Origin: Haemophilus parainfluenzae ATCC 33392
Lineage (GTDB): Bacteria; Pseudomonadota; Gammaproteobacteria; Enterobacterales; Pasteurellaceae
NCBI RefSeq assembly: GCF_031191205.1
Contig: NZ_CP133470.1
Span: forward strand, 1,743,501-1,807,500
DNA length: 64,000 nucleotides
Direction: 5' to 3'
The position numbers were made by a program, and so were the translations under genes. Below are positions 2,261 to 56,029 of this stretch, in pieces. The first letter of the stretch is position 1. Each line of letters starts with the position of its first letter. The notes below the pieces were generated by a model. That model did no database searches. It had not been told where the DNA came from and worked only from the letters and a program-made list of their open reading frames with translations.

Positions 2261-3448
2261 TTATGCGATGGTTACGCGTGCGAATTTACGTTTACCGACT
2301 TGGTAAACATTCGTGCCTTTCGGTGCGTTGGCTTTCATGTCTTCGACTTTTTCACCGTTAATTTTCACACCACCTTGTTTCGCTGAGCGAATTGCTTCAG
2401 AAGTTGAAGGAACCAGTCCCGCTTCTTTTAATAAGGTGGCTAAACCAATTTCGCCTTCAAAGGTGAATTCAGGCATTTCATCCGGCATTGCACCTTTTTG
2501 GAAACGGTTAATAAATTCTTGCTCAGCTGCCTCTGCAGCCGCTTCATCATGGAAACGCGCAATGATTTCTTTGGCTAATAAAATCTTCACATCACGTGGG
2601 TTTTTACCATTTGCCACTTCAGCTTTTAATTCCGCAATTTCAGTGAGTGGACGGAAAGAAAGTAAGTTGTACCAATCCCACATTAATTCATCAGAGATCG
2701 ACATAATTTTACCGAACATATCGCTTGGTGCATCTGTCACGCCGATGTAGTTGCCTAATGATTTAGACATTTTCTTCTCACCGTCTAAACCAACAAGTAA
2801 TGGAAGCGTAATCGCTACCTGTGGTTTCTGACCGGCTGATTTTTGTAATTCACGACCAACAAGTAAGTTGAATTTTTGGTCTGTACCACCAAGTTCTACG
2901 TCTGCTTCTAAAGCAACAGAGTCATGGCCTTGTAATAATGGGTAAATAAATTCATGAATCGCGATAGGTTGATTGTTACCAAAACGTTTTTTGAAGTCAT
3001 CACGTTCTAGCATACGCGCTACGGTGTAGTTGCTCGCTAAACGGATCATCCCTTCAGTACCCAATTTACCCAACCATTCAGAATTGAATACGATTTTTGT
3101 TTTTTGTGGGTCTAGAATTTTGTAAATTTGTTCTTTATAGGTTTCCGCATTGCGAAGCACATCTTCACGGCTAAGTGGTGGGCGAGTAGTATTTTTACCA
3201 GATGGGTCACCGACCATACCAGTAAAATCACCGATTAAGAAATAGACTTCGTGGCCTAATTGTTGGAATTGGCGAAGTTTGTTTAATACCACGGTATGCC
3301 CTAAGTGAATATCCGGAGCAGTAGGGTCTGCACCAAGTTTAATTTTAAGTGGGCGATTTTCTTTCAGTTTTTCGATTAAATCTGCTTCAGAAAGAATCTC
3401 ATCAGTACCGCGTTTTAGTTCTGCGAGAACGGTATTAATATCAGTCAT
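2261..3448 (-). CDS. tyrS: Tyrosyl-tRNA synthetase
   Basis: Class I synthetase that charges tRNA-Tyr. The 395 residues carry the HIGH-type motif HLGH at 48-51, the KMSKS loop near 226-230 ([11 protein letters not shown]), a Rossmann catalytic core and a C-terminal S4-like RNA-binding domain (about 330-395). The length suits the shorter TyrZ-like form found in Haemophilus rather than the 424-residue E. coli form. It has ATG with AGGA upstream. A TATAAT (plus-strand attata 3485-3490) just upstream suggests its own promoter, and the upstream small-RNA gene on the same strand ends in a terminator before it. Confidence 0.96.
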
Positions 3449-3484
3449 TCTATTTCCTAATGTTATTTCAATATTAAAGGCTAC

Positions 3485-3490
3485 ATTATA
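3485..3490 (-). promoter_or_regulatory. Probable -10 box of tyrS promoter
   Basis: Minus-strand TATAAT, 37 bases before the tyrS ATG and downstream of the sRNA terminator. The -35 region is poor, so the call rests on the perfect -10 hexamer and its position. Confidence 0.45.
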
Positions 3491-3521
3491 GAGAATATGG
3501 CTGAAATGAAAAGATTGAGAT

Positions 3522-3555
3522 GAAAAAAAACGCCTATTTGTGGGGAAATAGGCGT
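3522..3555 (-). terminator. Strong intrinsic terminator of the Fur-type small RNA
   Basis: Minus-strand hairpin with a perfect 10-bp stem: ACGCCTATTT (plus 3546-3555, read in reverse) pairs with AAATAGGCGT (plus 3530-3539), six-base loop, followed at once by eight T. It is about 100 bases from the sfsA stop but only ~67 bases from the predicted small-RNA start. Confidence 0.85.
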
Positions 3556-3589
3556 GAAGTTGGAGTGATTATCTATTTGTTTTTGGAAT
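3523..3589 (-). ncRNA. Predicted Fur-controlled small RNA, about 67 nt
   Basis: No reading frame of note lies here, yet the stretch has a full transcription unit: a -35 TTGACA (3619-3624), a 17-base spacer, a -10 TATCAT (3596-3601), two Fur-box-like sequences over the promoter, and a strong terminator ending at about 3523. The predicted transcript has an unstructured 5' part of ~35 nt containing CACUCC, which could pair with Shine-Dalgarno sequences, then the terminator stem. A 5' AAAUAG could also pair with CUAUUU of the terminator's first arm. The architecture is that of RyhB-type iron-sparing sRNAs; Haemophilus has one named HrrF. I cannot confirm sequence identity with HrrF from memory, so no symbol is given. 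Confidence 0.68.
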
Positions 3590-3593
3590 GTTT

Positions 3594-3613
3594 AGATGAT
3601 AACCATTCTCAAA
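3594..3613 (-). promoter_or_regulatory. Fur-box-like site over the sRNA promoter spacer
   Basis: Minus-strand TTTGAGAATGGTTATCATCT resembles the Fur consensus (GATAATGATAATCATTATC) in both half-sites. It covers the spacer and -10 box, where bound Fe-Fur would block RNA polymerase. Confidence 0.62.
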
Positions 3614-3624
3614 TGTCATGTCAA
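3596..3624 (-). promoter_or_regulatory. Sigma-70 promoter of the small RNA
   Basis: Perfect -35 TTGACA (3619-3624), 17-base spacer, -10 TATCAT (3596-3601, five of six consensus bases). It begins only 32 bases after the sfsA stop and points away from it towards the terminator. Confidence 0.72.
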
Positions 3625-3629
3625 TAGAA

Positions 3630-3649
3630 AAATGAAAATAATTCTCAAT
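3630..3649 (-). promoter_or_regulatory. Second Fur-box-like site upstream of the sRNA promoter
   Basis: Minus-strand ATTGAGAATTATTTTCATTT has the GAGAATTATTTTCATT core seen in many Fur sites. It lies just upstream of the -35 box, so two Fur dimers could bind side by side. Confidence 0.6.
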
Positions 3650-3655
3650 TATTTT

Positions 3656-4372
3656 TTAATCAATGTAAGGTACACTTTCCGTAAGAGAAAGTGCGGTCGG
3701 AATTCCATCTGAGATTTCAAATTTTCCCGCATAAGCGTAAGCTTCAACGCCCTGTGATTTGGCATTCTTTAAAAGACGATCATATTCAGGATCTATAAAC
3801 TCAGCGATTTTAAAACGATCGAAGCCATCATGTAATCCAGCAAAGAGAACAACCGCGCGATGTCCTTGTTTTTTCATGGCTAAAAGTTCACGAACATGTT
3901 TTTGTCCACGGGTAGTAACCGCATCGGGAAACATGCCTAATGAGCCTTTTACAAAGGTGATGGATTTCACTTCAACATAACAATCTGGCAAGCCTTCACT
4001 TTTAAGTAAGAAGTCGATACGGCTATTTTCTTCACCATATTTCACTTCAGGATAAATTTCATCATACATAGCCAGTTCTTTGATTTGTTTATTTTGCAAG
4101 GCTTCAAAGACTAACTGGTTGGATCTGTGCGTATTAATGCAAACAAGTTGGTCATTTGCTAATTGAGTTAATTCCCAACTATGTGGATATTTGCGCGTTT
4201 GGCTATCAGAATGAGAGTACCAAACGGTATCACCTTTTTCACCACAGCCAGTCATTGCACCAGTGTTTGCACAATGAATAGTGATTACTTCACCATTTGG
4301 TAATTCAATATCAGTCAAAAAACGCTTATAGCGGCGAATTAATTTTGCAGATTGTAGAGTGGGGAGTTGCAT
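3656..4372 (-). CDS. sfsA: SfsA, sugar fermentation stimulation protein
   Basis: A 238-residue member of the SfsA family, cytoplasmic proteins first linked to maltose metabolism in E. coli; the family has a predicted DNA-binding OB-like part and a nuclease-like fold, but the biochemical role is unsettled. Typical motifs are present: '[16 protein letters not shown]' near the N-terminus, 'NSRIDFLL', 'CYVEVKSIT' and '[12 protein letters not shown]'. The length matches the family (about 234). ATG is preceded by GGAATAA. An uptake signal at 3689-3697 lies within the last codons. It is separated from the SIMPL gene by an inverted uptake-signal pair. Confidence 0.92.
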
Positions 4373-55952: not shown

Positions 55953-56029
55953 CGCGGGGTGGAGCAGCTTGGTAGCTCGTCGGGCTCATAACCCGAAGGC
56001 CGTCGGTTCAAATCCGGCCCCCGCAACCA
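55953..56029 (+). tRNA. Initiator tRNA-Met (CAU)
   Basis: A 77-base tRNA with CAT anticodon and encoded CCA (56027-56029). The first pair is a C-A mismatch (5' C opposite A72), and the anticodon stem ends in three G-C pairs (GGGCTCATAACCC), both marks of initiator tRNAs. It is nearly identical to E. coli tRNA-fMet. The position upstream of rimP-nusA-infB matches metY of E. coli. Confidence 0.98.

Follow-up and report, generated by a model that had tools for sequence, protein, structure and literature searches.

The gap between two neighboring minus-strand open reading frames (ORFs) of Haemophilus parainfluenzae ATCC 33392, 2261..3448 and 3656..4372, which we take to be tyrS and sfsA (names carried over from a first-pass annotation of this DNA), raises the question of whether it encodes an RNA of its own and, if so, which one. 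All coordinates refer to the window, the whole 64,000-nucleotide stretch that was analyzed. No large ORF was found in the gap in the list of ORFs; on the plus strand, two ORFs start inside it, one of 35 codons and one of 38. On the minus strand, a near-consensus promoter comes with two Fur-box-like sites and leads into a predicted RNA whose 5' half is unstructured and which ends in a strong terminator; sfsA lies upstream (a relative is present at 30 of 30 loci compared) and tyrS downstream. Our preferred reading, to which we assign a probability of roughly 85%, is that the gap holds the gene of a stand-alone, trans-acting, Fur-repressed small RNA (sRNA) of the Pasteurellaceae, distinct from HrrF, which would spare iron by acting on nrfA and other mRNAs.

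The predicted transcript is ~67 nt long and extends over 3523..3589 on the minus strand, where the covariance model matches (G000:C1:1747023-1747089) and where the start is itself a prediction. Its promoter, TTGACA-17-TATCAT (3624 to 3596, minus strand), has 11 of 12 matches. A scan of 601 bases gave five promoter-like sites, of which this one ranks first, compared with a mean of 1.9 sites in shuffled sequences. The -35 hexamer (3619..3624) reads TTGACA in 62 of 133 loci and TTGACT in 27, at the same spacing, and the -10 hexamer TATCAT (3596..3601) is kept in 127 of 133, a count that is biased upward because the starts were defined from the -10 motif itself. The scan and the conservation in relatives confirm the promoter that the first-pass annotation had proposed. 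The terminator (3555 to 3530) was the only one found in the same 601 bases, against 0.4 in shuffles. Thus, the locus combines its own promoter and intrinsic terminator with a predicted short free RNA, an arrangement expected of this functional class.

The predicted RNA (3589 to 3523) folds at -12.4 kcal/mol with a z-score of -6.05, a stability equaled by none of 200 shuffles, and the terminator hairpin is its only paired part. This hairpin (3530..3555, minus strand) comprises ten pairs, carries the loop CCCCAC (3540-3545), which we propose as a second seed, and is followed by a U tract (3523..3529) recognized both by the scan and in the sequence. A first candidate seed, GATAATCACTCCAAC (3559..3573, minus strand), is single-stranded in the fold. 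Comparison of relatives was based on an alignment of 98 of the 107 distinct strings collected, leaving out two spurious sequences (L153, L214), a truncated one (L186), and near-duplicates (L058, L110, L117, L123, one variant of L124, and L141). In this alignment, compensatory changes are seen at all six consensus pairs of the terminator stem, although 26 of the 98 sequences have a break or gap at the outermost pair. The strong terminator claimed earlier stands, and its stem covaries. The seed core AATCACTCCA and the loop CCCAC are invariant in the 98 distinct aligned sequences, and the CACUCC motif lies within an invariant 10-mer, the constant seed of the family being AAUCACUCCA; this invariance is in part a matter of selection, as the collecting script tolerated one change in AATCACTCC and required a CC[CA]A loop. 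The exact 9-mer AATCACTCC was present in 134 of 134 genomes whose locus, hit by blast, was fetched. Finally, the U tract and the A-rich 5' part are features compatible with a possible role of Hfq. Among the 14 Hfq-bound RNAs of Actinobacillus pleuropneumoniae, none is listed beside tyrS or sfsA, some of their flanking genes being given as locus tags only (PMC9577009).

The distribution of the gene was assessed in three ways. A blastn search with 181 bases found matches in 136 of 140 Pasteurellaceae genomes, representing 41 of 43 genera. The covariance model R1 identified the sRNA in 139 of the 140, the single genome without a match being G013; many of these genomes had gone into building the model, so that independent evidence comes from the blast count. 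The covariance search that the first-pass annotation had suggested thus reveals a family-wide gene. When the model was run on 394 genomes sampled from the order, 35 matches were obtained, consisting of 34 Pasteurellaceae and one borderline outsider (E 8.8e-4). When named GTDB contigs were scanned for a sequence pattern, at least 80 stretches matched, and the matches listed comprise 79 with titles that we read as Pasteurellaceae, including H. influenzae, Aggregatibacter actinomycetemcomitans, Mannheimia haemolytica, Histophilus somni, Avibacterium and [Haemophilus] ducreyi, and one Saprospiraceae metagenome-assembled genome (L164), which failed a looser motif script and was taken as a chance match. 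By this comparative evidence, the locus is a gene in its own right, spread across the Pasteurellaceae. Two genomes, G103 and G030 (Pasteurella bettyae), carry it in tandem copies (L036, 3131-3200 and 3334-3404; L037, 2973-3041 and 3133-3204), an arrangement reminiscent of PrrF1/PrrF2.

The position of the RNA on the same strand as tyrS, ~75 bases upstream of it and with a terminator in between, would also suit a tyrS leader, in which transcripts starting at 3589 end at an attenuator before tyrS. However, the neighborhood is variable. Of 134 loci, 84 have an SfsA relative no more than 400 bases upstream, and 98 have a TyrS relative no more than 600 bases downstream; among the 36 loci lacking the latter, six also lack the former, as in L130, where other neighbors stand on both sides. 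The RNA is kept while its neighbors change, which argues against a leader. In addition, tyrS has a promoter-like site of its own, TTTTCA-16-TATAAT (3512-3485), located 3' of the sRNA terminator. The AAAUAG element, previously suggested to compete for the terminator arm as an antiterminator, is not conserved, and that idea finds no support: AAATAG occurs 5' of the core in eight of 133 loci and is accompanied by a matching CTATTT arm in just one. We consequently regard the leader as very improbable.

Both Fur-box-like sites lie in the promoter region of the predicted RNA. The upstream site, TGAGAATTATTTTCA (3633..3647, minus strand), and the site TGAGAATGGTTATCA (3597..3611, minus strand), which sits over the -10 and covers most of TATCAT, each have two mismatches to the 7-1-7 motif. 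In the 64 kb window, TGATAATNATTATCA with up to three mismatches occurs eight times, no excess over the 7.8 expected by chance; the only two sites with two mismatches are those at the sRNA locus. The motifs noticed in the first-pass annotation are thus confirmed as motifs, and their conservation provides a stronger test. Across 133 loci (one per genome, own locus included), the best upstream Fur motif has at most two mismatches in all 133 and at most one in 89, compared with 0.9% and 0.06% of dinucleotide shuffles of the same upstream stretches. In 96 of the 133 loci, this best site overlies the -10 and begins at position -22 relative to the predicted start, with the proviso that starts taken from the -10 hexamer favor sites over it. 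Of the 133 loci, 103 also have a second, separate site with at most three mismatches (0.2% in shuffles). Judged by motif, the promoter therefore contains the Fur box that characterizes Fur-repressed iron-sparing sRNAs, and the comparative evidence supports the earlier proposal of a complete, Fur-box-bearing sRNA gene built on the plan of RyhB.

The first-pass annotation had left undecided whether this RNA is HrrF or a second sRNA. HrrF, described in H. influenzae, has Fur boxes in its promoter and is likewise a short intergenic sRNA conserved in Pasteurellaceae (PMC4144887), so that regulatory plan and bacterial family both speak for identity. Yet its published locus lies between pmbA and hpt, as given in the available text of that paper, and in the genome studied here the HrrF model (RF02728) scores 110 bits at pmbA-hpt (L033, 1864-1962, minus strand); the RNA described here, located between the sfsA and tyrS ORFs, is therefore a second sRNA. 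HrrF also differs in sequence and is ~97 nt long (PMC4144887), and its model finds no match at 3440-3700 even with E values up to 10. We consider identity with HrrF virtually untenable.

More generally, no Rfam family reaches its gathering score at the locus, and raising E to 10 yields matches at chance level only; PrrF is among these (14.2 bits versus 90, E 4.9), and RyhB has no match. The sole Rfam match at gathering score in the window is a tRNA gene at 55953-56026. A gathering-score Rfam match at the gene is also lacking in twelve loci from named relatives, which include three from A. actinomycetemcomitans. This leads us to reject JA01-JA04, Aggregatibacter sRNAs that are represented in Rfam (PMC5753348), for which the three A. 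actinomycetemcomitans loci show no such match; they share with the present RNA the bacterial family and iron regulation, the latter predicted for our locus from the Fur motif. In two A. actinomycetemcomitans contigs, AaHKsRNA22 (RF02902) is found ~1.4 kb from the sRNA gene (L160, 6685-6782; L208, 6445-6542). EvsRna13 of A. pleuropneumoniae, flanked by gloA2 and sfsA, 248 nt long and with a different U-tract context according to the available text of PMC10708910, was rejected; in the Actinobacillus loci L048 and L101, by contrast, our RNA precedes tyrS without sfsA. Literature searches on Pasteurellaceae sRNAs and on tyrS/sfsA returned no named description of an sfsA-tyrS sRNA. HS108 of Histophilus somni, a 67-nt RNA with predicted promoter and terminator whose neighbors are given as locus tags (PMC10204968), could be the same RNA.

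The first-pass annotation had proposed CACUCC as a possible anti-Shine-Dalgarno seed with which targets should be searched, and the start-site match that recurs is nrfA. A recurring ORF named nitrite reductase NrfA by both Pfam and NCBIfam is present in 129 of the 140 genomes. We took 73 upstream regions of nrfA and compared 70 with the sRNA of the same genome (G013, G096 and G110 were omitted, with no sRNA in hand). In many genera, the Shine-Dalgarno region of nrfA has 13-14 nt complementary to the 5' seed. The site is mostly TGGAGTGATTATCGTG in Haemophilus, Aggregatibacter, Avibacterium, Rodentibacter and others, with some relatives one base off. In Actinobacillus, it is CATTTTGTGGGGGA, with 14 nt complementary to the terminator loop and 3' arm, a long pairing that needs partial opening of the terminator stem. 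In G070 (H. sputorum), the 15-nt site TACATCTTGTGGGGG tracks the unusual stem of that species' own RNA.

Contiguous complementarity between sRNA and nrfA reaches at least 9 nt in 43 of the 70 genomes (through seed 1 in 29, through the loop in 14) and at least 11 nt in 34. For control genes from the same genome set, at least 9 nt is attained in 0 of 32 for tyrS and 1 of 42 for sfsA, and 11 nt in none. With mismatches allowed, 59 of 70 genomes have a duplex energy better than that of dinucleotide shuffles at p<=0.05, and 44 at p<=0.01; these genomes are related and the counts non-independent, and 20 of 37 genera contain at least one genome at p<=0.01. Pairing is weak (p>0.05) in 11 of 70, including all three tested genomes of the genus of M. 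haemolytica. The anti-Shine-Dalgarno idea thus gains support from predicted complementarity to nrfA and other mRNAs. For nrfA, the RNA is complementary to the translation start of an iron-protein mRNA, and the other candidate targets are less certain.

Candidate targets beyond nrfA were sought with the seed alone. The exact complement TGGAGTGATT occurs at 60 sites in ten genomes, whereas a reversed control occurs at 28; ten of the 60 are in the sRNA gene itself. Fifty of the 60 were read, six of these being the sRNA gene (the ten unread sites include its other four), and nrfA of G028 was added separately. Among the 44 sites outside the sRNA gene, 11 are at the start codon of an ORF that we judged convincing. 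Four of these belong to nrfA (four genomes) and two to a SirB-family gene (two genomes); hcp, a hydrogenase small subunit and cyaY have one each, and two small pilin-like ORFs make up the rest. Most of the other sites fall within ORFs, on the opposite strand, or at a distance from any ORF start. Three genomes also have the 10-base complement within the first codons of ccmD, and one has it within napG.

A shorter match, GGAGTGA placed 1-8 bases 5' of an ATG, was searched in three genomes and gave 57 matches, 50 of which were examined. It precedes iscS (three genomes), an fdnG-type formate dehydrogenase (two), napB (two) and a hydrogenase-4-like membrane subunit (two), as well as a hydrogenase-2 small subunit, norB, cysG, ytfE, and a TorC/NapC-type cytochrome, some of these names being our own labels for Pfam families. 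The candidate targets thus include proteins with Fe-S clusters or haem. GGAGTGA also precedes unrelated genes (such as dksA, galM, dprA, hisIE, glpF, and rbsD). Iron genes account for 12 of 29 ORFs following GGAGTGA; with a decoy seed they account for 2 of 14 (p=0.07), the sorting into iron and non-iron genes having been our own and unblinded. Counting the hydrogenase-4-like subunits raises this to 14 of 29 (p=0.03). An 8-base seed gives 10 of 17 (p=0.014), a figure that includes one hydrogenase-4-like subunit and is set against a decoy that was not narrowed alike. Of the 29 ORFs, 26 have a Pfam match of their own, and L346, L358 and L366 were assigned by N-termini near-identical to L345 and L344; the decoy had 35 matches, of which 30 were examined and 14 had a Pfam match. 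The contrast with the decoy is thus modest. The SirB-family gene carries a seed complement of 7 to at least 10 bases at its start in the present genome, Mannheimia, A. actinomycetemcomitans and H. influenzae (L258, L268, L368, L380). A small ORF that looks pilin-like by eye has one at its start in H. influenzae and in the present genome (L239, ~1500; L257, ~1261).

C-rich RNAs in general fit Shine-Dalgarno regions to some degree. A real Fur-regulated sRNA might accordingly have other main targets, the match to nrfA being a by-product of its C-rich seeds. The 11 of 140 genomes that show no nrfA all have the RNA, and a by-product would also fit the 11 of 70 genomes in which nrfA pairs weakly and the short-seed enrichment at p=0.07. 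On the other hand, complementarity of 13-15 nt extends well past the Shine-Dalgarno core, the tyrS and sfsA controls are devoid of any match of 11 nt or more, and nrfA is among the genes most lowered in low iron (PMC3091793, PMC12507848, in the portions available). This makes a by-product unlikely. The constancy of loop and seed, which is unusual, could also be explained if the RNA titrated a protein or another RNA with no mRNA pairing, but these constant parts are complementary to the start regions of iron-gene mRNAs, and we view titration as extremely improbable.

Published data on iron restriction were compared with the preferred reading, a Fur-repressed sRNA acting on nrfA. Array and RNA-seq studies in Pasteurellaceae have described how enzymes acting on nitrite, nitrate, formate and hydrogen are shut down when iron is scarce. 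In A. pleuropneumoniae, microarray values under iron restriction were -2.51 for hyaA and -2.34 for nrfA, the most lowered among the entries in the available part of the data (PMC3091793), and a later study of RNA and protein reported -4.71 and -4.50, respectively, along with eight sRNAs altered by iron starvation (PMC12507848, available text). This lowering of nrfA and hyaA agrees with the role proposed for the sRNA, to which it may be linked. According to PMC3091793, as far as its available text goes, it had yet to be demonstrated that RyhB or any other sRNA plays such a part in Pasteurellaceae. For A. actinomycetemcomitans, two iron-induced, Fur-bound sRNAs were described in 2016, one being the HrrF homologue and the other, unnamed, having nitrite reductase as its predicted target (PMC5156373, available text). 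As A. actinomycetemcomitans carries both the sRNA gene (L155, L160, L208) and the nrfA site (L235 of G014), this second sRNA is probably the RNA studied here. In RNA-seq of H. influenzae 86-028NP, HrrF was the only Fur-dependent sRNA, according to the available text of PMC4144887. Our guess is that an RNA of ~70 nt may have been lost in making that library. The present gene bears on the claim of a single Fur-regulated sRNA in H. influenzae. Furthermore, HrrF by its published targets leaves the shutdown of respiratory enzymes unexplained, and the sfsA-tyrS sRNA is a concrete candidate for it: it is found in nearly every Pasteurellaceae genome searched, matches no Rfam family, and comes with exact predicted pairing sites.

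In the mechanism that we propose, a fall in iron would cause Fur to leave both boxes, including the one over the -10, allowing a transcript of ~67-72 nt to be made. The single-stranded 5' seed (UAAUCACUCCA) and the C-rich terminator loop would then pair with the Shine-Dalgarno regions of mRNAs for iron-rich proteins. The first target would be nrfA, encoding cytochrome c nitrite reductase, whose translation would be stopped and iron thereby spared. By analogy, the sRNA is most likely similar to RyhB in its role and to staphylococcal IsrR in its manner of action. RyhB of E. coli and Shewanella is Fur-repressed and lowers iron proteins to spare iron, which is the role we propose here, and in Shewanella it destabilises nrfA mRNA (PMC5826389, available text). 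Staphylococcal IsrR is Fur-regulated and pairs through C-rich single strands with the Shine-Dalgarno sequences of formate dehydrogenase and nitrate/nitrite reductase mRNAs (PMC9410917, available text). The likeness would lie in C-rich stretches directed against Shine-Dalgarno regions, suggested for our RNA by complementarity. IsrR, however, comes from an unrelated bacterium with a different gene order and has its C-rich parts in or beside other hairpins, as far as the available text of PMC9410917 describes them. One candidate seed of the present sRNA, by contrast, is the terminator loop. The sRNA is presumably both shorter than RyhB and different from it in its seed. The middle of HrrF (AGATTGCTTCAACA), for its part, resembles what we take to be the core of E. 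coli RyhB. The paper on HrrF reports no BLAST similarity to RyhB (PMC4144887, available text).

The sRNA appears unusual in its spread through one whole family, its constant 10-base seed, and the apparent use of the terminator loop as a second seed. A bolder and tentative version of our reading, to which we give a little less than an even chance, is that it serves the whole family as a master iron-sparing sRNA and has two anti-Shine-Dalgarno seeds that are interchangeable, between which the nrfA site would have switched in evolution: in Haemophilus, Aggregatibacter and others, TGGAGTGATTATC would face the 5' seed, and the Actinobacillus site given above would face the loop and 3' stem arm. If true, this would tie the evolution of a terminator stem to that of its target. 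The nrfA sites form a natural series in which the coevolution of an sRNA and its target can be studied.

The length of the predicted RNA also varies across the family. It is 62-79 nt in 120 of 133 loci and 91-99 nt in the remaining 13 (L072, 2509-2605; L038, L040, L068, and similar loci), where an insert separates the start from the seed. In G067, the insert carries the predicted pairing on into the first codons of nrfA (-42.9 kcal/mol, z-score -7.9).
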